Origin: Ignavibacteria bacterium
Lineage (GTDB): Bacteria; Bacteroidota; Ignavibacteria; Kapaibacteriales; Kapaibacteriaceae
Assembly: GCA_947458785.1 (NCBI GenBank)
Contig: CANGZU010000004.1
Location: 1-51,691 of the forward strand
Reading direction: 5' to 3'
DNA length: 51,691 bases
Both the position numbers and the translations under genes were made by a program. The notes under the pieces are model-generated. The model was not told where the DNA came from and did not search any database. It saw nothing but the letters and a program-made list of their open reading frames with translations. Positions 132-46,339 of the stretch are shown here, in pieces; position 1 is the first letter of the stretch; every line of letters starts with the position of its first letter.

Positions 132-3100
132 ATGAGTTCACAATTCTACAGCGTTTGCAAACGACTTGGGGCACTAGTCGTTGCACTGCTTGTACTTGGG
201 GTGGCCACGAACGCCCAGCCTGGTATTCCTCGACAGATTTCGTACCAAGGCGTCATATATGATGCAACTGGCATCCCATCGTGCGACAGCACATACACGG
301 TGGACTTCGCTATGTATGACGTTGCAGTTGGTGGAGCACCGCTATGGTTTGAGCGTCACATTATCCAGACGAAGTCTGGCATGTTCAGTGTGATTCTTGG
401 GAACACAACGGCACTAAACGTGAACTTCAACCAGCGTCTCTGGCTCGGGCTCTCGGTGAATGGACGCACGGAACTCAATCCGCGAACATTCCTCACCGCA
501 GTGCCGTATGCATTGAACTCAGAGTGGTCAAACATGTCGGGCATGGCTAATGATGTTGCCGACTCTGTGCGCTTGAGGATTCGCGGACGCCTTGCAGCAG
601 TTGCAGGATCCGACATTGATGTCAGCGGCAGCTTGGACAGCATGAACCTCACAATAAAGCCGAACACGGTAGGCGCTGATGAACTCGAAGAACTTCACCC
701 TGGTGTCATTGGTCCATTTGGCTCGGCAACACAGTCGGCAGTGATCACGATCGACCCACAAGGACGTGTGGTTCGTGCCGGACAGGTTCCGATCTCGGGC
801 GTTAGTCCAGGGGGTGCTGCCGGTGGTGACCTTGCCGGTACATATCCCAATCCTACCATCAGAGATGGGGCGATTACGACTGCTAAGATTCCGGATGGTT
901 CGGTCACGGGTGCAAAGATTGCTCCGGGTACGATCGGCACTGCGAACATTGCTGATGGTGCAATTACAGCATCGAAGATCGCCAATGATGCAGTAACCAG
1001 CGCCGCCATCAAGGATGGCGATGTCAATACGATTGATCTCGCAGACGATGCGGTAACGAGTCCGAAGATCAGGGACGGCGAAGTAAGAACACAAGATCTT
1101 GCTAACGATGCAGTAACGACTCCGAAGGTTGTTGATGGTGCTATCACGAGCGCGAAGATGTCGACCATGCAGGCGATTTTCCCTTCTACATATGGTGCGT
1201 CATCAAAGGTCCCACAGTTCACCGTTGACCAAGCTGGTCGAATCACCAACATTCGCGAAGTAGATGTGACAATCGCTCCAGGTGGACTTATTGCTGGGGG
1301 CGACCTTGAAGGCTCATTCCCGAATCCAACGATTGGAACGGGTAGGGTCACCTCGACCAAGATCCTCGATGGAACGATCCAAGACATTGATCTTGCAAAT
1401 GGTGCGGTAACCACACCAAAGATTTCGGACTTTGCTGTAACAGCTCAGAAGATCGCTGACGGAGCAGTCACAGCTGCTAAACTTGAGAACAGCGGAGTTG
1501 GAGTTGGTACGTATGGTTCTCCAACGCAAGTTGGACAGTTCATTGTCGACGCAAAGGGTCGCATCGTCTCTGCTCAGAACGTCCCAATCGCCGGCATGCC
1601 CCCTGTTGGAGTTGCTGGTGGAGACCTTACGGGAACATATCCCAACCCCCTGATCGCACCTGATGCCATAACATCTGCCAAGATCCTTAACGGCACAATC
1701 GCTACGGGTGATATTGCACCAAACACGATCACTAACGAACTCATCGTTGATAATGCGGTTACAACAACGAAGATCGCCGATGGCAACGTGACAAATCAGA
1801 AGTTGGCTGACAACGCAGTTTCAACAATGAAACTCCAGGATGGTTCAGTTACTGGCCCGAAGCTTGCAGATAATGCAGTGACAACAACGAAGATTGCAGA
1901 TGGAAACGTCACAGGAGCCAAGCTCGCCGATGGTGCTGTTTCTACGGCTAAACTTGCTGACGGTGCAGTTACAACGAACAAGTTGGCAGACGGATCAGTT
2001 ACGGCAGCCAAATTAGCCCCTGGTTCGGTCACTGCAGACAAGCTGGAAAACTCAGGCGTTGTGCTCGGCCAATACGGTTCGGCAACACAAGTGGGTCAGT
2101 TTACTGTTGACTCAAAGGGCCGCGTTACGCAGGCTGCAAACATCACAATCAGTGGTGTCGCTCCAGGTGGCCCAGCCGGCGGCTCCCTATCAGGAACATA
2201 TCCAAACCCATCAATTGCTCCGAATGCAGTCAACTCATCAATGATTCAGGACGGTACAGTTTCTGCAGCAGACCTTGCAGATAATGCTGTAACGACGCAG
2301 AAGATTCTCGACGGAAATGTAACGACGTCTAAGCTGGCCGACGGAGCAGTAACAACAGCAAAAATCCAGGATGGAAACGTTACAACAGCGAAACTTGCTG
2401 ATGGTGCTGTAACGACATCTAAGATTGCTGACGGATCTGTAACAGGTGCAAAGCTTGCCCCAGGTTCAGTAACTGCAGATAAGCTCGATAACACTGGCGT
2501 AATCCTTGGGCAGTATGGTTCAGCCACCCAGGTCGGTCAGTTCACGGTGGACTCAAAGGGGCGCATCACTGCAGCTCAGAATGTCACGATAGCAGGCGTC
2601 GCACCGGCAGGTCCTGCAGGCGGATCGCTCACAGGAACATATCCTAACCCATCGATTGCTCCAAGCGCCGTTACCTCGCAGATGATCCTCGATGGAACAG
2701 TTGCAACTGTAGACCTTGCCGATAACGCAATTACGACTGCGAAGATTGCTGACGCAAATGTCACAACCGCAAAACTCGTTGATGGTGCGGTTACGACTGC
2801 CAAGCTTGGTGACAATGCTGTAACGACCGCAAAGATCCAAGATGGCAACGTGACAACATCAAAACTTGCTGATGGTTCAGTTACTGCGGCTAAGCTTGCT
2901 CCCGGATCTGTCTCGGGAGATAAGCTTGAGAACACAGCCGTGGTTGTTGGTCAGTATGGCTCGGCCACACAAGTAGGTCAGTTCACGGTTGATTCAAAGG
3001 GCCGTGTTACGCAGGCTGCCAACATCACCATCACCGGAGTAACGCCGGGTGGAGCAGCTGGCGGTTCTCTCACAGGCACATACCCTAATCCATCTATTGC

Positions 3101-4931
3101 ACAAAGTGCGGTAACATCAGGTACAATCCTGGATGGTACAGTTGCAACAGTTGACCTTGCAGATAACGCAGTAACAACGCCGAAGATTGCCGATGGTAAT
3201 GTGACGAATGCAAAGCTGGCGGACAATGCCGTTACAACGACGAAGATTCAGGATGGTAACGTAACCACGGCCAAGCTGGCAGATGATGCAGTGACAACTA
3301 ACAAGCTTGATGATGGTGCTGTCACAACGGCTAAGATTGCCGATGGCTCAGTTACGTCAGTGAAACTCGCTGACGGTGCAGTTACTGCAGACAAGTTGGC
3401 CAGCACCGCAGTCGTTACAGGTACGTACGGCTCTGCGACAGAAGTTGGTCAGTTCACTGTGGACTCAAAGGGTCGAATTACGTTCGCACAGAACGTTACT
3501 ATCTCTGGCGTTGCACCATCTGGCGCAGCTGGAGGGTCTCTGACTGGAACATATCCTAACCCAACCATCGCGAACAGTGCTGTTACATCGCCAATGATCC
3601 TCGACGGAACAGTTGCAACTGTAGACCTTGCTGACAATGCGGTCACAACAGCGAAGATTGCAGATGGCAACGTCACAACTGCCAAGCTCGCAGACGGCGC
3701 AGTGTCGGGGGCTAAACTTGGCGACAATGCTGTTACCACGACGAAAATCCAAGATGGCAACGTCACCGGTGCTAAGCTTGCAGATGGTGCAGTATCAACG
3801 GCTAAGTTGGGTGATGGTGCAGTAACGACTGCCAAGCTTGCTGATGGTTCGGTAACAGCCGCAAAGCTTGCTCCGGGCTCAGTCACTGCTGACAAACTTG
3901 AGAACTCAGGCGTTGTGCTTGGTCAATATGGCTCGGCAACTCAGGTAGGTCAGTTCACCGTCGATTCAAAGGGTCGCGTGACACAGGCTGCCAACATCAC
4001 GATCACTGGTGTAACTCCAGGTGGAGCAGCTGGTGGAGATCTTACAGGCACATATCCAAACCCATCGATTGCTGCAAACACGATCAATTCAAGTAACATC
4101 GTTGATGGTGCTGTTGCGACCGGCGACATTGCTACAGGCGCAGTTACAACACCACTGATCGCCGATGGTGCGGTAACAGCAGCGAAGCTCTCAACAACAG
4201 GTGTAAGTGCTGCGACATATGGTTCAGCAACACAGGTAGGCCAGTTCACGGTTGATGCGAACGGACGAATCACTGCGGCTCAGAATGTTACGATCACAGG
4301 TGTTACTCCTGGTGGCGCTGCTGGTGGTGACCTAAACGGAACCTATCCGAACCCAACAGTTGATGGTCTCCAAGGTCGTGCGGTCGCAGCTACGGCACCA
4401 ACGAACAATCAGGTTCTAACATGGGATGCTACCGCTAATACATGGAAGCCTGCTGCCGTAACAGCAACAGCCACTTCAATTGGTGGAATTGGCGTTGACC
4501 CTGTTCTCAATCCAAACGACGGAGATGCTCTCACGTATGATGCAGCTCAGAATAAGTGGGTTCCACTCAATCCGACGGCTAACATCAAACAGTTGATTCT
4601 GGGCGAGGGTACCGCAATCAATATCGACTTGCTTCGCGGTGCGGGAACTGTGATCAACAACATCGATATCTCAGATCACGCGTTCTTCCGGATGACGAAT
4701 GCTGGACAAGGCTCCGACATTACGGGATTTGATAACGGTGCGAATGGTCGCGTGATCATCATCATCAATCAGTCCGGCAAGAACATAACGTTCCAAAATG
4801 AGGATGCTCGCTCTGACGCTGACAACCAGCTCATTTTGGGTGTTGCTAACAAGACAATCGGTAACAACCAGTCAATCACATTCATCTATTCTGGTACTCT
4901 GGGCAAGTGGGTCCTCATGGCCACTACCTAA
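132..4931 (+). CDS. Giant secreted repeat protein A (phage-tail-fibre-like modular repeats)
   Basis: This 1599-residue protein has a signal peptide at about residues 1-28 and an N-terminal domain (about 29-130) of the kind found on many secreted FCB-group proteins, with motifs [18 protein letters not shown] and [10 protein letters not shown]. The middle is nine modules. Each starts with a [13 protein letters not shown]-type segment, continues through GTYPNP and then a run of decapeptides such as [10 protein letters not shown]. The last 237 residues form a beta-rich C-terminal domain ending in KWVLMATT, with no T9SS sorting motif. The modules resemble repeats common in phage tail fibres. The ATG at 132 follows GGAG at 120-123. 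It is the first gene of a three-gene module whose second member begins 31 bases downstream. An adhesive or fibre-forming surface role is inferred, not shown. Confidence 0.85.
717..4220 (+). repeat. Coding repeat array A, modules of 57+10k codons
   Basis: The aromatic codon that opens each module lies at 717, 1191, 1512, 2073, 2514, 2955, 3426, 3927 and 4218. The intervals are 158, 107, 187, 147, 147, 157, 167 and 97 codons. All but the first fit 57+10k, with k between 4 and 13. Modules therefore differ by whole 30-base decapeptide units. The repeats are well conserved as protein but differ at many third codon positions, so they are not recent copies. Confidence 0.9.
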
Positions 4932-4962
4932 TCCAATCACAGTATCAAGGATGAAAACAACT

Positions 4963-5868
4963 ATGAAACACATACTCGTGATTGGTTGTCTTCTCTGCCT
5001 CGTGGGATCAACGATGCAGGGTCAGACAGTCGTAGGCGGGGTTGTTACCAGTGGAGCGACAACTGCGATCCAACTTGGTGACTACCACATGCAAGGGGCT
5101 GTTGGCCTCCCAATTGTTGGCGAAGCGGGTCTCGACCCAATCGTCCGCTCCGGCATCATCAGCCATGGTAACGCCGTGCAGAAGTTCTACGAATCAACTC
5201 TTATTCGAATCGACAGCGTCGTGAAGCAGATTGGCGACACGTTCGCACTCGATGTTCTTTACGGTGCGTCGTGCGCGTTGTTCCAAAGCAACGTGGCATC
5301 CCGCGATTGGGAACTCAAGGTCAGCTTTAACCGGACTGTTCTCGAGCCCCTTCGATATGACTCAATCGTTGATGATGGCGAACGCTACACGATCACTTTA
5401 ACAGGAAACGCTGCATCAAATGGCGGCGTGTTAACACGGCTGCTTCTGATGGGACGCTTGGGGAATGATTCTCTTACTGATGTTCGCCTCGAATCATTTA
5501 GATGGATTGATGCTCAGCGTCAGTACGTGCAATCAACGCCTGGCTCTGTCCTGCTGCGTGGACTCTGCAATACCTACGGTTCTACACGACTTCTCAAAGA
5601 TCCGAGCAAGATGGCTATCCTGATCGCACCGAACCCCGTTACGGGCTCGTCGTTCACCATGCGCACGTATTCCGATCGTCCGCAAGTTGGCACTCTTGTG
5701 GTAACAGACATTCATGGAAACGTGGTGTACACAGCAGACCGGGTGGAGGCAGGATCAACATGGCCGATGACAACTGTTGAGCTTCAGGTTATCCCTGCTG
5801 GTTCGTACACAGTTGCTCTCTTTACGGAAAACGATGTGGTACGAACAACTATGGTGAAGCTGCCATGA
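4963..5868 (+). CDS. T9SS-sorted protein with cohesin-like domain (module A, gene 2)
   Basis: The 301-residue product has a signal peptide ending near residue 20. A short Gly-rich segment (about 23-67) follows, typical of the N-termini of T9SS cargo. A beta-sandwich-like region (about 88-185) has the pattern QIGDTFALDV ... ELKVSFNRTVLEPL, reminiscent of cohesin-type domains. The T9SS type A sorting domain starts at APNPV (222-226). Cys104 and Cys202 are conserved in the paralogue at 11932 and could form a disulfide. The ATG at 4963 is preferred because the signal peptide begins there and AAGGA lies 11 bases upstream; an ATG at 4951 is possible. The stop overlaps the next start by 4 bases. Its paralogue occupies the same slot in module B. 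The function is unknown; a surface anchor or partner for the long repeat protein is inferred. Confidence 0.8.
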   Translation: MKHILVIGCLLCLVGSTMQGQTVVGGVVTSGATTAIQLGDYHMQGAVGLPIVGEAGLDPIVRSGIISHGNAVQKFYESTLIRIDSVVKQIGDTFALDVLYGASCALFQSNVASRDWELKVSFNRTVLEPLRYDSIVDDGERYTITLTGNAASNGGVLTRLLLMGRLGNDSLTDVRLESFRWIDAQRQYVQSTPGSVLLRGLCNTYGSTRLLKDPSKMAILIAPNPVTGSSFTMRTYSDRPQVGTLVVTDIHGNVVYTADRVEAGSTWPMTTVELQVIPAGSYTVALFTENDVVRTTMVKLP

Positions 5869-6788
5869 TATCAAGCTTCTCTCTTGCTCTCATGGCAGCG
5901 TATATGCTTTGCATGACATCGGCATCTGCGCAGCAAACCGATACAACGCATGTGCATGATCACAACCATGGGCACTCACATCAGCATTCAACGAGCAGTC
6001 CTCACCCGCATGACCATTCGCATGCACACGGACACGTGCACGAGCATCAGCATGTGCATGATCACGGTGTACCACATTCGCACGACGAGTTCACGTTAGC
6101 GTTCATAGGCAACCTGGCCACACATAACGCATCATTCAACTCGCTGCCTCCAATCGAAAACTGTTGCACAGGATTCAGCGACAGCAAGGGGCTAGGGTTC
6201 GGCTTTGAGCTTGGATACACAACGCCCCTTACCGCTGATGGCCTTACGATCACCCCACACATCGGCTATTTGAACATGCCCGTGTCATTTGATTCGTATT
6301 CTACCGAGAAGGCGTTTACTGGTGGTGTTGTTTCTGGCGATGCCCTGTTCCGTCACACGCTCGATGTGACATGGACAACCGTAACGTTTGGTGCTCGACT
6401 TGAGTATCCTGTTCTTAGTGGCTTCTACCTTGGATTTGGGCTCGACGGCTACTTCTTTGCAACTGGGTCTTTCCATCAGACAGAGACACTTGAAGAGCCG
6501 TCCAACCTTGTTTTCGAAACGGGCACGCGCGTCCGTTTGGATAGGAATGGATACGTTCGCGGCCAGAATGCCGTCGTGTTCAATGCCACAGGGTCTGCAC
6601 GCATCCGCTTGATTGAAAAGCAACAAGGTTCTGTTGGTGTCGACATCTTCGGACGCTACTCCCTTCCCCTTCAGCCATTGTTCGCCGCCCAAACATGGAA
6701 GGGTATGTCCGGGAATCCACCGGGTAGATTCTTCATCGATTCGTATTCAATATCGATGCTGACGTTTGGAATCGGATTGGTTTTCTAA
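5865..6788 (+). CDS. Outer-membrane beta-barrel-like protein with His-rich N-terminus
   Basis: The 307-residue product has a signal peptide (about 1-23). Residues 29-73 contain 20 histidines in an H-x-H-x pattern. The rest is a predicted beta-barrel: alternating hydrophobic strands, many glycines and aromatics, and a terminal Phe. The motif FNSLPPIENCC (91-101) with adjacent cysteines is kept in the paralogue at 12837, which lacks the His tract. The His tract would lie at the mature N-terminus and could bind Zn, Ni or Cu (inference). The start overlaps the previous stop (ATGA), implying translational coupling. A strong terminator follows. It is not a transporter of a family I recognise. Confidence 0.75.
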   Translation: MISSFSLALMAAYMLCMTSASAQQTDTTHVHDHNHGHSHQHSTSSPHPHDHSHAHGHVHEHQHVHDHGVPHSHDEFTLAFIGNLATHNASFNSLPPIENCCTGFSDSKGLGFGFELGYTTPLTADGLTITPHIGYLNMPVSFDSYSTEKAFTGGVVSGDALFRHTLDVTWTTVTFGARLEYPVLSGFYLGFGLDGYFFATGSFHQTETLEEPSNLVFETGTRVRLDRNGYVRGQNAVVFNATGSARIRLIEKQQGSVGVDIFGRYSLPLQPLFAAQTWKGMSGNPPGRFFIDSYSISMLTFGIGLVF

Positions 6789-6813
6789 AGCGCATAACAA
6801 CACAGATTACCGC

Positions 6814-6849
6814 GCGGGACTTCACGGTGAGTGAAGTCCCGCTTTTTTT
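6814..6849 (+). terminator. Strong rho-independent terminator closing module A
   Basis: A perfect 12-bp stem (GCGGGACTTCAC at 6814-6825 pairs with 6831-6842) with a 5-base loop is followed by seven T residues at 6843-6849. It lies 25 bases after the stop of the third gene of module A, so it should end that transcript before module B. Confidence 0.93.
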
Positions 6850-6867
6850 ATAATCAAATATTAGAAT

Positions 6868-6895
6868 TGTGGACAAGTAACCATGGTTATCCACA
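6868..6895. promoter_or_regulatory. Palindrome with paired DnaA-box-like sites upstream of repeat gene B
   Basis: A perfect TTATCCACA lies at 6887-6895, and a one-mismatch copy in opposite orientation lies at 6868-6876 (TGTGGACAA). Between and overlapping them is the 12-bp palindrome TAACCATGGTTA (6878-6889). The 14-mer TGTGGATAACCATG at 4-17 recurs here inverted (6882-6895). The site lies between the terminator of module A and the start of repeat gene B, in a 254-base spacer that holds no other gene. Confidence 0.45.
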
Positions 6896-7042
6896 GCCAT
6901 GCGCGCGCTACGAGACAGGCTCATCATAATTTTGCGACGCAGGCGTAAAAGCACCGTCGACAAGGGGTTATCGAAATCGGCACTGACGGTCCACGCCACA
7001 TTACATCGAAACAAAACATATTTACACTGTGAGGTTTTTCAT

Positions 7043-10000
7043 ATGGCACAGACGATAGCACGTGGCCTGTTCATGGCGCTCATGTTTGCGGTTTTCATCG
7101 CAGCTGCGTCTATCAGCGCTTTGGCGCAGACGGGCATTCCAAAGAAGATCACGTATCAAGGGGTATTGATCGATACTACTGGCATCCCAGTCTGCGACAG
7201 TGTCTGGACAGTCGACCTCACGGTCTACAATGTAGCGATTGGTGGCACTGGTGTTTGGAATGAACGCCATACAGTTACGACCAGCGGTGGCGTGTTCAAT
7301 GTTATCCTTGGTGAAAAGTCACCACTAAACATTTCATTTGACCAATCCCTTTGGCTCGGCACATCGATCAACAGCCAACCGGAATTGACACCTCGCGTCT
7401 TTCTCACGGCTGTGCCTTACGCACTCAATGCACTCAATGCAAAGTCAGCAGAGATCGCAAGCGCAGTAACGCCGCAGGTTGCTGATTCCATCCGTCAGTC
7501 GATCAACAACCCAACGAACAATATGGGTGATGTACTGATTAATGCCATCAACGGCACTGGAACAACAACAATCAACGCCGCTCGCGTTCAGGGGGCTGCC
7601 TCAGGTGCAGGATCAGACATTACTGTTAACGGCCCACTGAACGCCCTGAACCTCAAGATCAATGACAACACCATTGGTGCTGCTGCTCTGCAGGAGATTC
7701 ATCAGGGTCCGCTCGGACCATTCGGTTCATCCAACACCAGCACTGTGCTTCGAGTCGACGAGCAGGGTCGCGTTACGTTTGCTGAGCAAGTCCCTATCAT
7801 CGGCGTACCACCAGGGGGAACAGCGGGTGGGGAACTCACGGGATTCTACCCGGCACCAACGATTAAAAATGGTGTCATCACTACGGAAAAGATTGCGCGT
7901 GGTGCAGTAACGACAACAGAGCTTGCCGATAATAGCGTTACGACTTCCAAGCTGGTTGACTTCAACGTCACAACACCGAAGCTTGCCGAAGGTGCCGTTA
8001 CATCAGAGAAGATCTCCGGTGGTGCAGTTACAACAACGAAGATCGCCGACAAGTCTGTCACTGAACAAAAGCTTGCAGACTTCGCTATCACTAGCCAGAA
8101 GATTGCCCCTAACACAATCACCGGTGCGAACATCAAGGATGGCTCGATTGGGAGCGATGAACTTTCGCAGATGCCACTCGACGCTGGTCTCTATGGCTCG
8201 TCGACGCTGATCCCACAGATGTATGTAGACAAGTCTGGGCGCATCGTTACGATTCAGAATGTTCCATTGGCTGGCTCGCCCCCTATCGGTCCAGCAGGCG
8301 GCGCGTTGGTTGGCTCCTACCCAAATCCGCAGCTTGCTCTCGGTGTCGTTGGTACTGAGAACATCAAGGACGCAGCGGTAACAACGGCCAAGATTCTTGA
8401 TGGCGCGGTTAGTAATGCCGACCTTGCTAGCAACTCGGTATCGACGGACAAGATCATTGACCGCTCTGTGACGTCACAAAAGCTCATTCCAACGGGTGTG
8501 AATCCAGGTCAGTATGGTTCGTCAACCCACTCAGCAGTTGTAGCTGTCGACTCGTCAGGTCGAGTAGTAACAGCATTTTCAATTCCGATTGCACCAACAG
8601 CTCCGAGTGGTCCTGCAGGCGGGTCATTAACTGGCACATACCCCGACCCACAACTTGGTAACGGTGTTGTCACGAGTGCCAACATCGCTGATGGTACAAT
8701 CCAATCGCTCGATATTGCCAATGGTAGCATTACATCCGCCAAACTGACGACAACAGGAGTTACGTCTGGAATCTATGGCAACGCAACGCAGGTAGGTCAG
8801 GTCACGGTAGATGCTCAAGGCCGCGTAACAGCAGCGCAGAACATCACGATCAGTGGCACAACGCCAGGTGGTGCAGCTGGCGGCGTCCTCTCAGGCACAT
8901 ATCCAAACCCAGGTCTTGGAACTGGAGTTGTAACGTCGAACAACATTCAAGATCTCACGATTACCACCAACGACATAGCTGATGGTGCCATCACCGCTCC
9001 GAAGCACTATCTATCGGGTGTGACAGCAGCAACCTACGGTTCGAACCTGCTTGTTCCTCAGATAACGATTGATGCCCGCGGTCACATCACATCAGCAACG
9101 AATGTTGCTATCTCCGGAATCTCCCCGAGTGGCCCGGCTGGTGGTGTCCTCTCTGGCACATATCCAAACCCTGCCCTTGCCGCTGGTGCCGTTACATCTG
9201 CAGCGATAGCAGATGGTTCAATAACATCTGCAGATCTGGCAGATGGGGCTGTTACAGCAAGCAAGCTGGCCAACACAACTGTTACCGCCGGTTCATACGG
9301 AACGCCAACACAGGTAGGTGCATTTACCGTAGATGCGCAAGGTCGTCTGACAGCAGCATCAAACGTGACAATTTCGGGTGTGACACCAGGTGGCGCGGCG
9401 GGCGGAGTCTTATCAGGGACATATCCGAACCCAACGCTTGCCATCAGCTCTGTGTCATCTGCCAACATTGTAGATGGCACAATAACATCTGCCGACATCG
9501 CGGCTAGCGGCATTGCAACAACCAATCTTGCTGATGCTGCTGTAACCGACGCGAAGCTTTCGGCTACCGGTGTTACCGCCGCAACCTATGGCAGTGCAAC
9601 ACAGGTCGGACAGTTCACCGTCAATTCACAAGGTCGTCTCACCTTTGCCGGCAACGTCACAATTACGGGCACTACACCTGGCGGTTCCGCTGGCGGAGCA
9701 CTCACAGGAACATATCCTAACCCAACGCTCGCAGCCAATTCTGTGAGCTCTAGCAATATCACAGACGGCTCGATCGCAACTGGAGACCTTGGTGATGGCA
9801 TTGTAACACCTGCAAAGCTTTCAAACACTGGTGTTTCTGCTGGCGTTTATGGTTCGTCATCGCAAGTTGGACAGTTTACGGTTGATGCTTCTGGACGAAT
9901 CACAAGCGCAGCCAACGTAACGATTGCCGCTGCAGCTCCAACAGGTGCGGCAGGCGGTGCCCTTGCTGGAACATACCCTAATCCAATTCTTGCAACTGGG

Positions 10001-11896
10001 TCAGTTTCTTCATCGAACATCGTCGATGGTACGATCACAGCCTCGGATGTTGCAGACGGAACACTGAGTTCGGCCAAGATGACTGCAACTGGTGTAACGG
10101 GGGCTTCATACGGTACATCGACACAGGTAGGACAGTTTACCGTTGATGCAGCTGGCCGCATAACCACTGCACAGAACGTTACAATCTCCGGTGTAGTCCC
10201 GGGCGGCAGTGCTGGTGGAGCTCTCACGGGAACGTACCCTAGTCCATCGCTCGCAACAAACAGTGTTGGCTCGGGCAACATCACAGACGGATCGATTGCA
10301 ACGTCTGATCTCGCAGACGGAGCTGTTACAACCAACAAGTTGGCTGCTACTGGCGTAAATGCAGGAACATTTGGTTCTGCCACGCAGGTGGGACAGTTTA
10401 CCGTAGATGCTTCCGGTCGGATTACAAGCGCTGGCAACGTAACGATCACCGGCGCCGCTCCTACAGGCGCGGCTGGTGGTGCACTGTCTGGCACCTATCC
10501 AAATCCAACACTCGCCACAGGCGCAGTAAGTTCTACGTCTATTGCAGACGGCGCTGTTGGCTCGGCTGACCTTGCAGATGGTGCAGTAACGGATGCGAAA
10601 CTTTCGAATACCGCTGTAACCAGTGGCACGTATGGTTCAGCCACGCAGGTTGGTCAGTTCACTGTCGATGCCAAGGGTCGCATCACAAGTGCCACCAATG
10701 TCACCATCACAGGGGCATCGCCAACGGGTACAGCCGGTGGTGCACTCGCAGGAACGTTCCCTAATCCAACACTCGCCAATGGCTCTGTAGGATCGGCAAA
10801 CATCATCGATGGCTCTGTATCAACAGTAGATCTTGCTGATAATGCAGTCACCACAGCAAAGGTTGCTGACGGCGCGATCACCAGTGCGAAGCTCAGCACA
10901 ACGGGTGTTGCCGCCGGTTCGTATGGTACTGCCACTGAAGTTGGATCGTTTACAGTCGATTCGAAGGGTCGCGTCACAGCAGCAGCCAACATCACGATTG
11001 CCGGTGTCACGCCAGGCGGAAGTGCGGGCGGCGCTCTCACTGGTACGTATCCGAATCCGACTCTCGCTACAGGGGCGGTCACATCCACATCGATACTTGA
11101 CGGAGCTGTGGGCACGGCAGATATTGCTGACGGTTCGGTAACAAGTGCTAAGCTCTCAAACACTGCCGTCACGGCAGGCCAGTACGGCACAGCAACACAA
11201 GTAGGTTCATTCACAGTTGACGCGCAAGGTCGCGTAACGGCAGCCAACAACGTAACCATCAGCGGTGTTGCTCCAGGTGGAACAGCTGGTGGTGATCTCA
11301 ATGGCTCCTATCCGAATCCAACGGTTGACGGCCTTCAGGGCCGCGCAGTAGCAGCAACGGCTCCAACGAACAACCAAGTGCTCACGTGGGATGCAACTGC
11401 TAACACATGGAAGCCGGCAACGGTTTCTGCTGACGCATCTACGATCGGTGGCAAGCAGATTACATCACCATTGACACTGCAAGATGGCTTTGCTCTCGTC
11501 TACGACGCTGCTACTGATAAATGGGTAGCTGAGAATCCATCTAGTAACATTGGCAAGTTTGTTCTAACAGAAGGCACAACCATCGACATTGATCTTCTAC
11601 GCGGTGCCACGACTGTCATCAACAACATCAACATTTCTGACAACGCATTTTTCCGCATGATCAATGCAGGCCAAGGCTCTGATATCACCGGCTTTGATAA
11701 TGGTGAGAATGGACGTGTGATCATCATCATCAATCAGTCCGGCAAGAACATCACGTTCCAGAACGAGGACAATCGTTCTGCTGTCGACAATCGCCTCGTC
11801 CTCGGCGTAGCGAATAAGACAATTGGCAACAACCAATCGATCACGTTTATCTACTCTGGAACGCTTCAGAAGTGGGTTCTTATGGCAACAACGTAA
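7043..11896 (+). CDS. Giant secreted repeat protein B (paralogue of repeat protein A)
   Basis: The product has 1617 residues from the ATG at 7043, which has GAGG at 7031-7034 and starts a clear signal peptide (about 1-30). The frame stays open upstream to 6899, but that extension is basic and runs through the regulatory palindrome region, so I reject it. The layout is that of protein A: the N-terminal domain [12 protein letters not shown] ... [10 protein letters not shown], thirteen modules opened by [13 protein letters not shown]-type segments with GTYPNP motifs, and a C-terminal domain of exactly the same 237-residue length ending KWVLMATT. The decapeptide runs are shorter than in A, but there are more modules. 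No T9SS sorting motif is seen. It heads the second three-gene module. The role is inferred to be a surface or extracellular fibre. Confidence 0.85.
7721..11185 (+). repeat. Coding repeat array B, modules of 57+10k codons
   Basis: Module-opening aromatic codons lie at 7721, 8192, 8513, 8774, 9035, 9296, 9587, 9848, 10109, 10370, 10631, 10922 and 11183. The intervals are 157, 107, 87, 87, 87, 97, 87, 87, 87, 87, 97 and 87 codons. All fit 57+10k with k of 3, 4, 5 or 10. The first two intervals match those of array A (158 and 107), pointing to a shared ancestral N-terminal part. Confidence 0.92.
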
Positions 11897-11931
11897 TGAC
11901 AGCACCAATGCGTCATAATGAAGGAACAACC

Positions 11932-12840
11932 ATGAGAATAAACATCATCATCCCTCTCCTCCTCGTCATGCTACTTGTTGGCCGCGTGACTGCTCAATAT
12001 GGTGTTGCTGGTGGCGGCGTTACAAGCGGCGCAATCGCAAGCCCCGTTTCGGGCAAGTTCGGATTGCGCGTGTCGATTGGCCAACCATTGCTTGGAGATG
12101 CAGGCCCTGCACCTCGTCTTGCTGGCGGTCTGCAGAGTATCGGCGACTACTATCAACAGAGCTACGAGAACACAACGATTGTTGTTCCCGAGCAGATCCA
12201 ACAGGTTGGAGACACGTTCAACTTCGATCTTAACTACGGTGCTCCATGTGCGTTTTTCCAAGACGGTGTGGAGCGCGAATGGGAATTGAAGCTCACATTC
12301 AACCGAACGGTCCTAGAGCCGCTTGTCTTTGATGCGGTGGACGACAACGGTGAGTATCACACAATCACTGTCACTGGGAAAGCCTCGCTTCAGGCAGGCA
12401 AGCTTGCGACGCTGAAGTTTCTCGCGTTGCTCGGAAACGACAGTACGAGTGTGGTTCGCGTTGAGTCGTTCCGTTGGACGAGTGTACGTCGACAGTTCAC
12501 GCAATCAACTCCTGGATCTGTTACCCTCAAGGGGCTATGCACGACGTACGGCAACACGCGCCTAATCAAAGCACCCGGCAAGACTTCTATTCTTGTTGCT
12601 CCGAACCCAGTTACAGGCTCAACTGTTGGTCTGCGTGTATACGCAGAACAAGCGGTTTCCGGCACAATCGTGATCACTGATATGCACGGCAATGTGATTG
12701 CAAACAAGACAGACGTTGAAGCAGGCTTGCAGTGGCCACTCGTTACCATTGAACTGCCGGTTATTGCAGCTGGCACGTATACTGTGACGTTCGCTGCATC
12801 TGACATCATTGCAAGAACTACTCTTTTGAAACTACCATGA
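11932..12840 (+). CDS. T9SS-sorted protein with cohesin-like domain (module B, gene 2)
   Basis: The 302-residue product is a paralogue of the protein at 4963 over its whole length. It has a signal peptide to about residue 21, the Gly-rich start with IGQPLLGDAG (49-58), the cohesin-like region with QVGDTFNFDL and FNRTVLEPL, and a T9SS type A domain from APNPV (223-227). Cys106 and Cys203 match the two cysteines of the paralogue. The ATG at 11932 has AAGGA at 11921-11925 with good spacing. The gene lies 35 bases after repeat gene B, and its stop overlaps the start of the barrel gene. T9SS cargo is exported across the outer membrane and often held at the surface; its partner here is unknown. Confidence 0.82.
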   Translation: MRINIIIPLLLVMLLVGRVTAQYGVAGGGVTSGAIASPVSGKFGLRVSIGQPLLGDAGPAPRLAGGLQSIGDYYQQSYENTTIVVPEQIQQVGDTFNFDLNYGAPCAFFQDGVEREWELKLTFNRTVLEPLVFDAVDDNGEYHTITVTGKASLQAGKLATLKFLALLGNDSTSVVRVESFRWTSVRRQFTQSTPGSVTLKGLCTTYGNTRLIKAPGKTSILVAPNPVTGSTVGLRVYAEQAVSGTIVITDMHGNVIANKTDVEAGLQWPLVTIELPVIAAGTYTVTFAASDIIARTTLLKLP

Positions 12841-13658
12841 TGAACCGCATTCTCGTTCTTATAACGATGTTGATGTTTGGATTGATCCATGCTAGTGCTC
12901 AAGAGTTGCGCTCGAGCGATAGCACAAAGCCTGAATCACGATCGACATCATCGACGGAATGGTCAGTTAATCTCATTGGCTCCTACGGAATGCACGATGT
13001 TGATTTCAATTCTCTGCCTCCAGTAGAGAATTGTTGTTTGGGTTTCGAAAACTCAAACGGCATCGGCTATGGCATTCAGTTAGGTGGCAGTTTCCCATTG
13101 TCTGAAAACGGCCTTCGTCTTTCGACGCGGGCTGGATATCAGCAATTGCCTGTTGCCTATTCGTCGTTTTCGACAAGCCCCGTGTACCTGCCCGGTACTG
13201 GCACTGTAAACGCAGTGTTTAAGCATGGCCTAGATGTTACATTCCACACCGTGCCAGTTCACATAACGTTGGAGTACGAACTTACTGACTGGCTATGGCT
13301 CGGATTGGGGCCAGATGCTTACTACATCGCATCATCTGCGTTTCAACAAACTGAGACGCTCGAGAATCCTTCAGATCTGTTGTTTGAGAACGGATCACGC
13401 ACGCGGATCGACACGACAGGTTCATTGTCGAACTACAATTCGATCGTCTTCAATGCCCACGCTTCACTGCGTGTTCGCCTTGGACGCGATATCGGTTCGA
13501 TTCGCAGTGTTGATCTGCTTGTGGGATATTCACTTCCCCTTACTCCAGTGTTTGATCCTCAAACATGGCAGGGTACAGCCGGGAGCCCCGTTCGCTCGTA
13601 CTTCATCAACAGGTACAACCTCTCACTTCTTACCGCCGGTATTGCGGTTGCGTTGTAG
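12837..13658 (+). CDS. Outer-membrane beta-barrel-like protein (module B, gene 3)
   Basis: The 273-residue product has a signal peptide (about 1-21), a short Ser/Thr-rich linker and a barrel-like body with the motif [11 protein letters not shown] (57-67). It aligns along its length with the protein at 5865 but lacks that protein's His-rich tract. The first two codons are both ATG (12837, 12840), and the first gives the ATGA overlap seen in module A. No hairpin terminator follows. The next gene, icd, starts 43 bases on, so readthrough is likely. Confidence 0.75.
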
Positions 13659-34406: not shown

Positions 34407-34869
34407 TCCGATAGAGCAGCCACTCATTCATGCAGACAGCCCCCTGCTTGGTATAAAACTCACGTGCCGTGGTGTTCCAGTCGAGCACCTGCCAGTCTAC
34501 CCTGCCACATCCGCGTTGCCTAGCTTGGCCTACGACAAAATCGAACAGTAATCTTCCGAACCCATTCCCTCGGTGCGACTCGAGAACGAAGATGTCCTCA
34601 AGGTACATTGTTGGTAATGCTAGGAACGAAGAGTACGTCTCGAGGATGATCGCATAGCCAACCGCCTGACCTAGTTCTGTATCAAGCAGGTAGGCCTCAA
34701 TGCGCGGCATCGACCCAGTTATATCTTGATGCAGCCGATGTTTGGCTTCTTCCGTCGGACGGTCCAAGTGCTCGTAGTCAGCAAGGGCACACACGAGCGA
34801 AAAAAACTCCTCAAACCGAGATGCATCAACCCTTCGAACTACTCCGTTCACCTTAGAGGGCCTTCTCAA
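34396..34869 (-). CDS. GNAT-family N-acetyltransferase
   Basis: The 157-residue product has the GNAT fold with the acetyl-CoA loop in VLESHRGNGFGRLL and a C-terminal WNTTAREFYTKQGA segment, as in diamine and small-molecule acetyltransferases. The region from PTMYLEDIFV to LDWNTTAREFY resembles spermidine/spermine acetyltransferase-like proteins, but the substrate cannot be named. Its 5' end overlaps the dsbD 3' end by 17 bases on the same strand. Confidence 0.85.
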   Translation of the reverse strand: MRRPSKVNGVVRRVDASRFEEFFSLVCALADYEHLDRPTEEAKHRLHQDITGSMPRIEAYLLDTELGQAVGYAIILETYSSFLALPTMYLEDIFVLESHRGNGFGRLLFDFVVGQARQRGCGRVDWQVLDWNTTAREFYTKQGAVCMNEWLLYRITL

Positions 34870-36859
34870 GGAATGCTACAAACAGTCCCGGATTGGAACG
34901 GAACTGCGTCTGGAACCCTGTCTGAGCTACGTACGTCCCATCTGACTTAAGCAATACGTACAACGGGTTGGCTACCGTACCGTAGGTCTTCAGGATATTC
35001 TGATTGGTAATGTAGGGCTCTGTCTTTCTGTCGGTATAGAGCTGCACAAGAACGAACTTCTTGAACTGTTCAACGACATCGGGCCTTGGGAAGACATCCT
35101 TCTCCATGAGCCTGCAATTCACACACGCAAATCCGGTAAAGTCGATAAAGATCGGCTTGCCTTCACGAGCAGCAATCTTCTTTGCTTCATCAAGGTTGTT
35201 AAGCCAGACAAGCCCACCATGTGCATCAGAAGCTTCCTTCGAAGGAGCCTGCGATGTTGATGCAATGACAGCCGTACCATTCATCTGGGCGAGAAGCTCA
35301 TGGTAGTTTTCAGGCGGGAGTAACGCTTCGAGGTCTGCGGCAAGGGGCTTGCCTAACATACCTGCGGCAAACCAAAGACCAAGCGTTGCGAAGATGACAG
35401 CAAAGAGTGCACGTAGGCCGCCGATGCGCTCAACGGGTGTATCAAGTGTGAGTTGGTAGGTACCCAAGATGTAGAGCACGATCAGAAGACAAACACCAGC
35501 CCATATGGCAAGAAAGACTTCACGCGGCAGCAGCCCAAGTCCAAAAATGAATTCGGCTGTGGAGAAGAACTTCACCGCAGCGGCGATCTCGAGAAATCCC
35601 ATCACAACTTTCAGGTTGTTCATCCAGCCGCCTGCGCGTGGTAGTCGCACAAGCAACGACGGGAACATCGACAGCACAACGAACGGGATGGCAAATGCTG
35701 TGGCAAAGCCGAGTGTGCCAACGGCCGGGTAAAGGTAATCGCCTCCCGAGGCACTCAGCAGCAGTGTGCCCACAAAAGGGACCGTACAGGTGAAGGACGT
35801 CAACGAGAATGTTAGCCCCATGAGGAGAACGGAGAATACTCCATCGCCTTGCGACTTCTTGTTGAGCGCGTTCATGATCGAGACAGGAACTTGAATCTCG
35901 AACGAGCCAAAGAGATTAAAGGCCAACGCCATGAACAACAAGCCAATACCAAGATTCAACCATGGGTTGGCGGCCAGATCCTGAACGGCCGTTCCGCCGA
36001 ACAGGATTGAGGCAATGATGCCCACTGCCGTGAATGTCGAAATGATGCCAACCCCGAAAAGCACACTATCGCGCAGGCCAGAGCCTTTGGTCTTCTCGTG
36101 GCGCTTCGTAAAGAACGATACGGTGATTGGAATCATTGGGAAGACGCACGGCGTGAGCAACGCCAGAAAGCCGATTCCCATGGCATAGAGGAAAAAGCTC
36201 AGAAGCCCCTTACTCTTTTCTGCCTCGATTTCCTGCTGCGTATCCATAGGAGCAGCAACAGTTTCCGATGCCTTGCCTGGAAGATCTGCAGGTGCTGATT
36301 CCGTCGTATCCTCGAGTGGGAGAGCTGCGCTGGATGCTACGTCTGTGATCGTAATCGAAACTTCCTGCGGCATATCCTCTGAGGGCAAGCAGGCCGACGT
36401 GTCGCAGAGCTGCATGAGGAAATTCACGCTGGCCTTTTGCGTTCCTTTTGGCAGTGTGGGCGACAGACGCACGGGGATTCGCAGTTCAATGCTACCTGAG
36501 AGCTCTTCAACGTTTGTCTCCCACGTTTTATCAAAGGCTGTATGCGCTCCCTTGGTGAAACGGGGCTTACCAGCGATTTTGAGAGCAGACTTAGGCCCGA
36601 CTGTGACGACTGTAGCCTCAGGTCCGAGGCCGTCGGGTCCGACTGCAGGTGTTAGACCGTAGCTATGCCAGTGCTTGGCAATCTTGGCCGCAACAACAAT
36701 CTCAACGGTATCGCCTGCACGCCCACTGATCGGGGCAACCGGCGCAAATGTGATCTTGTTTTTCGCAGATGGCATCTGTGCTGCAAGATTAGCAGCAGAA
36801 AAGCCGAGGCAGATGACCAGGGCAACATAGCAGCGAACTACGGCGCGTACGTGTTTCAC
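34853..36859 (-). CDS. dsbD: Thiol:disulfide interchange protein DsbD
   Basis: DsbD carries reducing power from cytoplasmic thioredoxin across the inner membrane. The 668-residue product has a signal peptide (about 1-27), an N-terminal domain with Cys152 and Cys157 in LCDTSACLP, a membrane domain (about 220-505) with the redox pair Cys238 (LTPCVFPMIP) and Cys358 (FTCTVPFVG), and a C-terminal thioredoxin domain with CVNC (Cys579, Cys582). All three redox pairs are present. It could serve cytochrome c maturation or cysteines of exported proteins. Confidence 0.95.
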   Translation of the reverse strand: MKHVRAVVRCYVALVICLGFSAANLAAQMPSAKNKITFAPVAPISGRAGDTVEIVVAAKIAKHWHSYGLTPAVGPDGLGPEATVVTVGPKSALKIAGKPRFTKGAHTAFDKTWETNVEELSGSIELRIPVRLSPTLPKGTQKASVNFLMQLCDTSACLPSEDMPQEVSITITDVASSAALPLEDTTESAPADLPGKASETVAAPMDTQQEIEAEKSKGLLSFFLYAMGIGFLALLTPCVFPMIPITVSFFTKRHEKTKGSGLRDSVLFGVGIISTFTAVGIIASILFGGTAVQDLAANPWLNLGIGLLFMALAFNLFGSFEIQVPVSIMNALNKKSQGDGVFSVLLMGLTFSLTSFTCTVPFVGTLLLSASGGDYLYPAVGTLGFATAFAIPFVVLSMFPSLLVRLPRAGGWMNNLKVVMGFLEIAAAVKFFSTAEFIFGLGLLPREVFLAIWAGVCLLIVLYILGTYQLTLDTPVERIGGLRALFAVIFATLGLWFAAGMLGKPLAADLEALLPPENYHELLAQMNGTAVIASTSQAPSKEASDAHGGLVWLNNLDEAKKIAAREGKPIFIDFTGFACVNCRLMEKDVFPRPDVVEQFKKFVLVQLYTDRKTEPYITNQNILKTYGTVANPLYVLLKSDGTYVAQTGFQTQFRSNPGLFVAFLEKAL

Positions 36860-44908: not shown

Positions 44909-46339
44909 ATGCATATCCATTTCGTTGGCATCGGAGGAACCGCTATGGGTTCTGTTGCAGTGGCATGTAGACTGCAGGGACATACCGTCACGGGTAGTGA
45001 TGGGCCTGTCTATGAGCCGATGCGCAGTGTTCTTGCCAATGCCGGCATCGAACGGTTCGAGGGGTATGATGCTACACGATTGCTGGCCCTCTGCCCAGAT
45101 TTGACGGTTATAGGCAATGCGATCAGCAGAGGGAACGAGGAGTTGGAGTTCGTTCTCGATAATCGATGGCCGTATTCATCGATGGCCGAACTGGTGGGTC
45201 GGTTGTTCATTGACCGCAACACGTCGATCGTATGTGCTGGTACGCACGGCAAGACTACAACCTCGAGTATTACTGCTTGGCTTCTCGAACACGCAGGATT
45301 TCAGCCAGGATACCTAATCGGAGGAGTCCCACAAAACTTCGAGTATGGTTGCCGACCTGTTTCAGCGGACATCCACAATACGCGTGCAGGGGTGTTTGTA
45401 TCCGAGGGCGACGAATATGATACTGCGTTTTTCGACAAACGAAGCAAGTTTGTGCACTATCGTCCGACGATTGCAATCGTCAACAATCTTGAATTTGATC
45501 ATGCCGACATCTTTTCGTCTGTCGAGGCCATTATTACCTCGTTCAAACAGATGATCCGTGTTATCCCCCAGAGTGGTGTTGCATTGGTAAATGCAGATGA
45601 TGACAACGCCCTCGCAACAACAGAGAACGCACACTGCACAGTTGAGACAGTCGGCCTTTCTCTAGATGCTACCTGGTGCATCGACGACGTGCAAGAGCTC
45701 GGCGGCACAACAATCTGGAACGTCAAACACGCCGGCTCCAACTATGGTACATTTTCCCTGCCAATGCCCGGAATACACAATGTTCGTAACGCAACTATGG
45801 CCATAGCGGCAACATTTCATGCTGGGCTTTCACGTGAAGAGCAGCAGCAAGCCATGCCGCTGTTTTCCCCGCCCAAGCGACGTCTAGAGGAGCTCGGGTT
45901 GTGGAATGGTGCAACAGTGATCGACGACTTCGCGCATCATCCAACAGCCATCGAGTTAACCCTGCGGGCGTTGCGTCAGAAGTATCCGAGCGCGCGTCTG
46001 CACGTTGTGTTCGAACCACGCTCAAACACGACGACACGAAACTTTTTCCAGCACGAACTGGCATCTTGTTTTGCCGGAGCAACAACAGTATGCCTTGGAC
46101 CAGTCAACAGACCCGAACGCTATGCACCCGAGGAACGGCTCGACACAGACCGCCTTATGCATGAAATCAAGCTTCAGGGTATCGAAGCTATCGGCTTAGA
46201 TGCAGCACTTGCATCCGACAAAGAATGGGGCCGCGTCGTGATTGAACACCTGGTCTCCCGGGTCCACCCTGGTGATGTACTTGCCATCTTGAGCAATGGT
46301 GATGTAGGGGGCTTGCGGCGACTGCTTATCGCTGGATGA
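44909..46339 (+). CDS. mpl: UDP-N-acetylmuramate:L-alanyl-gamma-D-glutamyl-meso-diaminopimelate ligase
   Basis: Mpl recycles murein tripeptide by joining it to UDP-MurNAc. The 476-residue Mur-ligase-family product starts with HIHFVGIGGTAMGSVA, has the ATP loop CAGTHGKTTTSS (109-120), EGDEYDTAFFDKRSKFVHY and VIDDFAHHPTAIE. The EYDTAFFDKRSKF segment separates Mpl from MurC. A DAP-containing wall fits with dapD in this window. The 3' end overlaps the convergent subtilase gene by 14 bases. Confidence 0.95.
   Translation: MHIHFVGIGGTAMGSVAVACRLQGHTVTGSDGPVYEPMRSVLANAGIERFEGYDATRLLALCPDLTVIGNAISRGNEELEFVLDNRWPYSSMAELVGRLFIDRNTSIVCAGTHGKTTTSSITAWLLEHAGFQPGYLIGGVPQNFEYGCRPVSADIHNTRAGVFVSEGDEYDTAFFDKRSKFVHYRPTIAIVNNLEFDHADIFSSVEAIITSFKQMIRVIPQSGVALVNADDDNALATTENAHCTVETVGLSLDATWCIDDVQELGGTTIWNVKHAGSNYGTFSLPMPGIHNVRNATMAIAATFHAGLSREEQQQAMPLFSPPKRRLEELGLWNGATVIDDFAHHPTAIELTLRALRQKYPSARLHVVFEPRSNTTTRNFFQHELASCFAGATTVCLGPVNRPERYAPEERLDTDRLMHEIKLQGIEAIGLDAALASDKEWGRVVIEHLVSRVHPGDVLAILSNGDVGGLRRLLIAG

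Follow-up and report, generated by a model that had tools for sequence, protein, structure and literature searches.

The DNA analysed here (hereafter the window) is a stretch of 51,691 nucleotides that makes up an entire contig, part of a 2.13 Mb genome of an Ignavibacteria bacterium of the order Kapaibacteriales (CANGZU010000004.1). By open reading frame (ORF), it carries two three-gene operons head to tail (module A, 132-6788; module B, 7043-13658), in each of which a giant fibre protein is followed by an adaptor with a sorting signal of the type IX secretion system (T9SS) and then by an outer-membrane barrel protein. Each module probably specifies an adhesive fibre resembling the mosaic adhesive trimer (MAT) fibres of the predator Bdellovibrio, which would be carried or captured by the T9SS adaptor and clamped by disulfides to the outer-membrane anchor. 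A sequence-only reading of the window had noticed a tandem three-gene module with one gene order and an ATGA overlap between genes 2 and 3; six ORFs, the overlap in both modules and the homology of the corresponding products bore this out.

Both fibres have signal-peptide-like N termini, and neither matched the T9SS C-terminal domain (CTD) profile, just as the sequence-only reading had described them. The signal peptide is followed in both by a domain of about 115 residues with an ISYQG motif. In fibre B, this N-domain matched NF053851 (Bdello_MAT_N) with an E value of 6e-7 and 29.4 bits, under the curated cut-off of 60 bits, and the fibre is therefore called MAT-like here and not filed in NF053851. 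When 23 N-domains of the order were combined into a profile and aligned with the N-domains of Bdellovibrionales MATs, hhalign gave 96.1% with an E value of 3e-9 over 71 columns; through this alignment, the beta-rich domain of about 130 residues that stands right after the signal peptide in MATs could be recognized. Judged by these profile comparisons, the fibre N-domain is a distant homologue of the Bdellovibrio MAT N-domain, which replaces the earlier description of gene 1 as an unclassified giant repeat protein. The exchangeable tips of the MAT superfamily could be found as well: relatives with a common N-domain end in an S74 chaperone, a Phage Tail Collar domain or one of many unrelated tip clusters. 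Tip and N-domain profiles had no meaningful match among PDB sequences, and no solved structure was matched by the sequence of the window tip.

A strong MAT_N match in one relative (G052) was rejected as proof of MATs in the order. It was the sole NF053851 match above cut-off among 60 genomes, and it lay on a contig (C94; L156 = JAEUSO010000185.1, from a Candidatus Kapaibacterium metagenome-assembled genome, MAG) that encodes a MAT 78% identical to that of a Bdellovibrionales MAG and is probably a Bdellovibrionales contaminant. It should be noted that short proteins with a MAT-N-like domain alone also occur. One of them, with a divergent domain, is encoded on another contig of the window's own genome (C21, L163 2758-3483) and is followed by two small unidentified genes; similar proteins of about 250 residues are present in most relatives, about one per genome.

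Decapeptide repeats are present in both shafts, with repeats of 97-187 residues in fibre A, and a GGxLxGxYPNP-type supra-repeat occurs in 9 copies in fibre A and 13 in fibre B. Fibre A also matched DUF5907 (46 bits), and PHROG tail-fibre profiles matched its shaft strongly (8e-149). This last result would favour a phage origin, with the fibres being prophage tail fibres or a tailocin component. We regard such an origin as highly improbable: the shaft similarity is to repetitive sequence, the fibres have signal peptides and a T9SS partner, and the surroundings of the modules are chromosomal and of a housekeeping type (an isocitrate-dehydrogenase-like ORF comes next and FtsZ is close by), where no genes of phage were identified.

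The adaptor opens with a domain of about 55 residues (SGG...GTVGQxxIG...GFWY), here named GQP from its 'GQP...GFW' pattern, which is followed by a cohesin-like region (a relative's Cohesin match, E value 2e-4, was slightly short of cut-off) and by a C-terminal sorting signal. The sorting signal noticed in gene 2 by the sequence-only reading was recovered by TIGR04183 (cut-off 23) with 23.9 bits in adaptor B and 21.6 bits, slightly under, in adaptor A. The adaptors thus combine a signal peptide with a C-terminal TIGR04183 domain, as T9SS type A substrates do, and both SprA and a PorU-type sortase were found above cut-off in the genome.

To examine the relationship between the GQP domain and the fibre, the domain was searched alone in 24 genomes, the fibres not being used. 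Of the 34 GQP-domain proteins found, 24 had the start of an ISYQG fibre within 400 bp on the same strand, and 6 more had the 3' half of a fibre directly upstream, its 5' half lying beyond the contig; the remaining four were located at contig ends (two) or beside fibre-like or broken fibre genes (two). A fibre therefore directly adjoined 30 of the 32 GQP proteins with a readable neighbourhood. With about 1-2 GQP genes and 2-3 fibres among the few thousand genes of a genome, chance adjacency was estimated at well below 1% per protein. Elsewhere in Bacteroidota, outside the order, an ISYQG fibre adjoined 10 of 14 GQP proteins with readable neighbourhoods. Two gene orders were observed: either the fibre comes first and is followed by a long adaptor, or a short adaptor of 160-240 residues (GQP plus CTD) precedes it, and these short proteins adjoin fibres although they have neither cohesin-like region nor barrel. 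The reverse count covered 92 fibres in the fetched loci of the order, which had been picked for holding fibres. Their neighbours were a GQP adaptor (47), another fibre (9), another small CTD protein (6) or a large CTD protein (5); nine had none of these, and 16 were cut by contig ends. Linkage across the phylum and in both gene orders can hardly be accounted for unless the two share a function, most simply the holding of the fibre N-domain by the GQP domain, and on gene neighbourhood the GQP domain is the best candidate holder for the fibre family.

A layout of barrel, short adaptor and fibre was also considered and rejected: the upstream gene was mostly QueC-like in shared synteny, and short-adaptor cassettes thus generally lack a barrel. 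An exception is present on contig C2 of the window's own genome (L023, minus strand, 7270-2897), where a 210-residue barrel-like gene is followed by a short GQP protein and a short ISYQG fibre; another two genes of tail-fibre type come next, and then one for a CTD protein.

For gene 3, no Pfam family was matched above cut-off by either window barrel. Relatives matched OMP_b-brl_2 (PF13568; 27.2 and 34.5 bits, cut-off 27) together with OmpA domains, into which their barrels often run on, and it is through these relatives that the window proteins can be placed with OMP_b-brl_2/OmpA-type barrels; the earlier reading of gene 3 as a barrel holds to this extent. TIGR03519 (PorP/SprF) did not match the barrels, and it gave no match in the genome at large, although the control for this was uninformative. 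Foldseek searches of PDB returned nothing at E<=0.001 for the barrel model, OmpT/OmpA being ranked first, and generic Ig-like matches alone for the adaptor model, with one cohesin construct at rank 18. Since these AlphaFold2 (AF2) models are of low confidence, no fold claim is based on them. Barrel A has a His/Asp-rich tail after the signal peptide (HVHDHNHGHSHQH..., window 5931-6080) with a metal-binding look, which is absent from barrel B.

In Kapaibacteriales and sister families the barrels have multiplied greatly, with close to or at least 13 scored candidates in nearly all listed genomes of the order; members of the family found elsewhere are few and weak. Wherever the gene downstream of a cohesin-bearing long adaptor could be read, it encoded a barrel, and short adaptors had none. 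The cohesin-CTD ending also occurs on large surface proteins of unrelated kinds, among them one that has WD40 and VWA domains, again with a barrel downstream, and the cohesin-CTD/barrel pair recurs in each genome, mostly without a fibre. On the basis of this recurrence, the pair looks like a general surface-anchoring unit of the order, into which the window module would plug a MAT-like fibre via the GQP domain.

The same recurrence could be read differently, namely that adaptor and barrel are only the ordinary T9SS anchoring unit of the order and the fibre, which lacks a CTD, is a separate secreted adhesin that happens to share the operon. We think this unlikely, given that the GQP domain is a separate N-terminal module kept almost always beside a fibre, in both gene orders and across Bacteroidota, and that the short adaptors without cohesin or barrel adjoin fibres too. 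The dedicated assembly proposed by the sequence-only reading is well supported by conserved gene order and by the co-occurrence of cysteines in the partners, but not as an obligate threesome: the module is modular, fibres occurring also beside a short adaptor where no barrel is encoded, and cohesin-CTD/barrel pairs without a fibre. Fibre and barrel families are found apart in most genomes, which is not the case for fibre and adaptor or for long adaptor and barrel.

Conserved cysteines co-occur in the members of the module. Two motifs were scored, [IL]C..GG.RL at the end of the cohesin-like region of the adaptor and LP..[SN]C[CS] in the barrel. In 49 adjacent pairs, both cysteines were present in 47, neither in 2, and no pair was mismatched. 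Eight further pairs from a later search, which included sister families, all had both, giving 55 with both, 2 with neither and 0 mismatched among 57 pairs; as paralogues with common ancestry, these pairs are not fully independent. The two cysteine-less pairs keep most of the other columns that are conserved in at least 90% of sequences. Genomes of the order with a barrel and without a cohesin partner were rejected as a control, because the partner was present and had been missed at the first threshold; barrel homologues from other Bacteroidota were used in their place. In these barrel-OmpA homologues, which have no cohesin-CTD neighbour (L275-L281), the double cysteine was lacking; most of those at L275-L280 stand beside proteins of about 425 residues that have an ice-binding-like look. 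In the low-confidence AF2 model of barrel B, the barrel cysteines fall in the loop that joins the first two predicted strands, which would be extracellular in a barrel of the OmpA type.

A second set of cysteines is restricted to the clade of the window. Wherever the N-domain of a window-clade fibre could be read (own A, own B, G003 and G007), it contained a cysteine, no N-domain cysteine was found in the other long fibres examined, and an extra adaptor cysteine occurs at one column exclusively in window-clade adaptors. The G007 fibre and adaptor are on separate contigs and were paired by inference. As a separate observation, the same contig encodes a DsbD-like thiol-disulfide exchange protein (window 34853-36859, minus strand), which fits periplasmic disulfide chemistry.

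These cysteines might also act within each protein, as a vicinal disulfide in the barrel and a structural or buried cysteine in the cohesin-like domain, the complex itself being non-covalent like that of type B CTD protein, PorP and PorE, which has been described without a disulfide (PMC9143113). In agreement with this, the adaptor cysteine is kept even where no barrel gene adjoins, and some pairs do without the second barrel cysteine (present in 40 of 49). However, most adaptors have a single conserved cysteine with no conserved internal partner, the adaptor and barrel cysteines are lost jointly and never singly, and partnerless barrel homologues do not have theirs. We consider a purely non-covalent complex rather improbable, though less so than a phage origin or independent cargoes.

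The favoured assembly of MAT-like fibre, adaptor and disulfide-linked barrel may be pictured as one cell-surface fibre unit per module. Gene 1 would supply a fibre of the MAT kind, possibly trimeric and presumably adhesive, with the N-domain proximal to the cell, a phage-tail-like repeat shaft and an exchangeable C-terminal tip that would bind a target ligand. Gene 2 would be the holder: its N-terminal GQP domain would be dedicated to the fibre, most simply by contact with the fibre N-domain, and its C-terminal signal would direct it through the SprA translocon, possibly with the fibre bound. The fibre may leave with the adaptor through SprA or by some other route and then be captured at the surface; some fibres of a relative (G033) bear their own CTD, which makes it plausible that the T9SS can export fibres of this kind. 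Gene 3 would provide an outer-membrane barrel of the OmpA type to receive the cohesin-like part of the adaptor, and the conserved cysteine at the end of this part would bond a cysteine in the first, presumably extracellular loop of the barrel. The fibre N-domain would, in the window clade, bond through its lone cysteine to the extra adaptor cysteine. With both disulfides formed, fibre, adaptor and barrel would be one covalent chain, which in relatives with a barrel-OmpA fusion would extend to the peptidoglycan. More tentative, and in our view somewhat short of an even chance, is the full proposal that GQP adaptors piggyback MAT-like fibres without a T9SS signal through T9SS, that a two-point disulfide lock fixes them to the barrel loop, and that covalent anchoring to outer-membrane or peptidoglycan anchors is order-wide.

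Several points weigh against this assembly. The NF053851 match is beneath its cut-off (29 versus 60 bits), and no fibre stands next to at least 3 of the 14 GQP proteins found outside the order. The usual anchor of type A CTD proteins is anionic lipopolysaccharide (A-LPS), to which PorU attaches them. The joint absence of adaptor and barrel cysteines represents two events (p about 0.0006 assuming an independence of pairs that does not fully hold), both pairs without cysteines belong to the more divergent ones, and the same cohesin cysteine is present in cohesin-CTD proteins without an adjacent barrel. The vicinal cysteines of the barrel could form a disulfide of their own. The fibre-adaptor cysteine pair is weaker evidence, as it would reflect a single co-gain in one clade, and the two cysteines of a window-clade adaptor could bond each other instead. 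Finally, the AF2 models of barrel and adaptor are single-chain, built on two-sequence alignments and of low confidence (predicted local distance difference test, pLDDT, 50 and 47).

With regard to the history of the locus, modules A and B are 50% identical in their adaptors and 42% in their barrels, and the C-terminal 200 residues of their fibres are 79.5% identical, clearly above these values. In a tree of concatenated adaptor and barrel, the two modules were sisters with a support of 0.996, and they thus represent a true tandem duplication. One relative (G003) also has a tandem pair of modules, whose copies were not sisters in this tree; its tandem array therefore has a separate history. A third complete module of the window's own genome is divided between contigs C25 and C20, the two sharing 149 bases within the fibre gene. 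For fibre B, an in-frame upstream ATG at 6899 would extend the ORF, which then has no leading signal peptide. The features of both modules are listed in Table 1. Elsewhere in the window, a 1434-residue protein that combines a subtilase domain with FG-GAP repeats is encoded at 46326-50630 (minus strand).

Table 1. Positions of the module features in the window
Feature	Position	Strand	Remarks
Fibre A, 1599 aa	132-4931	+	ORF; signal peptide, N-domain, repeats, tip
Fibre A ISYQG/MAT-N-like domain	225-548	+	
Fibre A cysteine codon, Cys51 (GIPSCDSTY)	282-284	+	N-domain; only one of the mature protein
Fibre A C-terminal tip	about 4335-4928	+	
Adaptor A	4951-5868	+	Signal peptide, GQP domain, cohesin-like region, T9SS type A CTD; alternative start 4963
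Adaptor A GQP domain	5023-5193	+	
Adaptor A extra cysteine, Cys108 (GASCALF)	5272-5274	+	Clade-specific
Adaptor A hinge cysteine, Cys206 (GLCNTYGSTRL)	5566-5568	+	Conserved
Adaptor A T9SS type A CTD	about 5617-5865	+	
Barrel A, 307 aa	5865-6788	+	His-rich N-terminal tail
Barrel A vicinal cysteines (LPPIENCCTGF)	6162-6167	+	Strand 1-2 loop; loop position from barrel B model
Hairpin then T run	6814-6849	+	Intrinsic-terminator-like; between modules A and B, read directly
Fibre B, 1617 aa	7043-11896	+	ORF; signal peptide, N-domain, repeats, tip
Fibre B MAT-N-like domain	7133-7462	+	NF053851, 29.4 bits
Fibre B cysteine codon, Cys51 (GIPVCDSVW)	7193-7195	+	Only one
Fibre B C-terminal tip	about 11300-11893	+	
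Adaptor B	11932-12840	+	GQP domain, cohesin-like region, T9SS type A CTD
Adaptor B GQP domain	11995-12168	+	
Adaptor B extra cysteine, Cys106 (GAPCAFF)	12247-12249	+	Clade-specific
Adaptor B hinge cysteine, Cys203 (GLCTTYGNTRL)	12538-12540	+	Conserved
Adaptor B T9SS type A CTD	about 12589-12837	+	Strand-rich; modelled with confidence by AF2
Barrel B, 273 aa	12837-13658	+	
Barrel B vicinal cysteines	13032-13037	+	

No description of a combination of fibre, T9SS adaptor and barrel was found in the literature (open-licence papers), and its parts can be compared with three known systems. First, the MAT fibres of Bdellovibrio bacteriovorus have a mosaic plan of N-domain, shaft and varied tips (PMC10769870; NCBIfam NF053851), and the surface element that holds their N-domain is unidentified according to the same work (PMC10769870). 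The window fibres share the signal peptide, a homologous N-domain, a phage-tail-like shaft and exchangeable tips (S74 and non-S74 within the order). In contrast, their N-domain is distant, under the curated cut-off, and they are encoded with a T9SS adaptor and a barrel, whereas the one Bdellovibrionales locus compared (L157) had tandem MATs with no GQP, CTD or barrel neighbours. The GQP domain is, from gene order across Bacteroidota, a specific and small candidate holder domain for MAT-homologous fibres, and the proposed disulfide-joined assembly is a concrete candidate for how Bdellovibrio-type fibres stay attached to the cell; travel with the adaptor is a suggested route to the surface for fibres without a T9SS signal.

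Second, type B CTD protein, PorP/SprF and PorE form T9SS anchoring units (PMC9143113, PMC12618676), of which PG1035-PorP-PorE is the precedent for anchoring by a CTD protein, a barrel and an OmpA domain (PMC9143113). The window module resembles them in that a CTD surface protein is encoded beside a dedicated barrel, with an OmpA-type peptidoglycan link in some cases. It differs in that its CTD is type A-like, no type B CTD having been matched, and in that its barrel is OMP_b-brl_2/OmpA-like, not PorP-like, with the OmpA domain, where present, fused to it.

Third, GldK forms disulfide bonds with the twin cysteines of SprF and PorG (PMC12635249). The window barrels likewise have twin cysteines and their partner a single one, and an inter-protein disulfide is proposed here too. 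There, however, the link is periplasmic and leads to the motor track, whereas the two cysteines of the window barrels are placed in the loop after the first strand, which is expected to be extracellular, and they would bond with a secreted adaptor. The cysteine pattern thus predicts a disulfide anchoring mode for T9SS products, which would cover many surface proteins per Kapaibacteriales genome. The tandem module noticed by the sequence-only reading is thus confirmed, and its interpretation is supported in part and sharpened: the module joins fibres of the MAT kind to T9SS anchoring and adds a proposed new partner domain and a predicted anchoring by disulfides.

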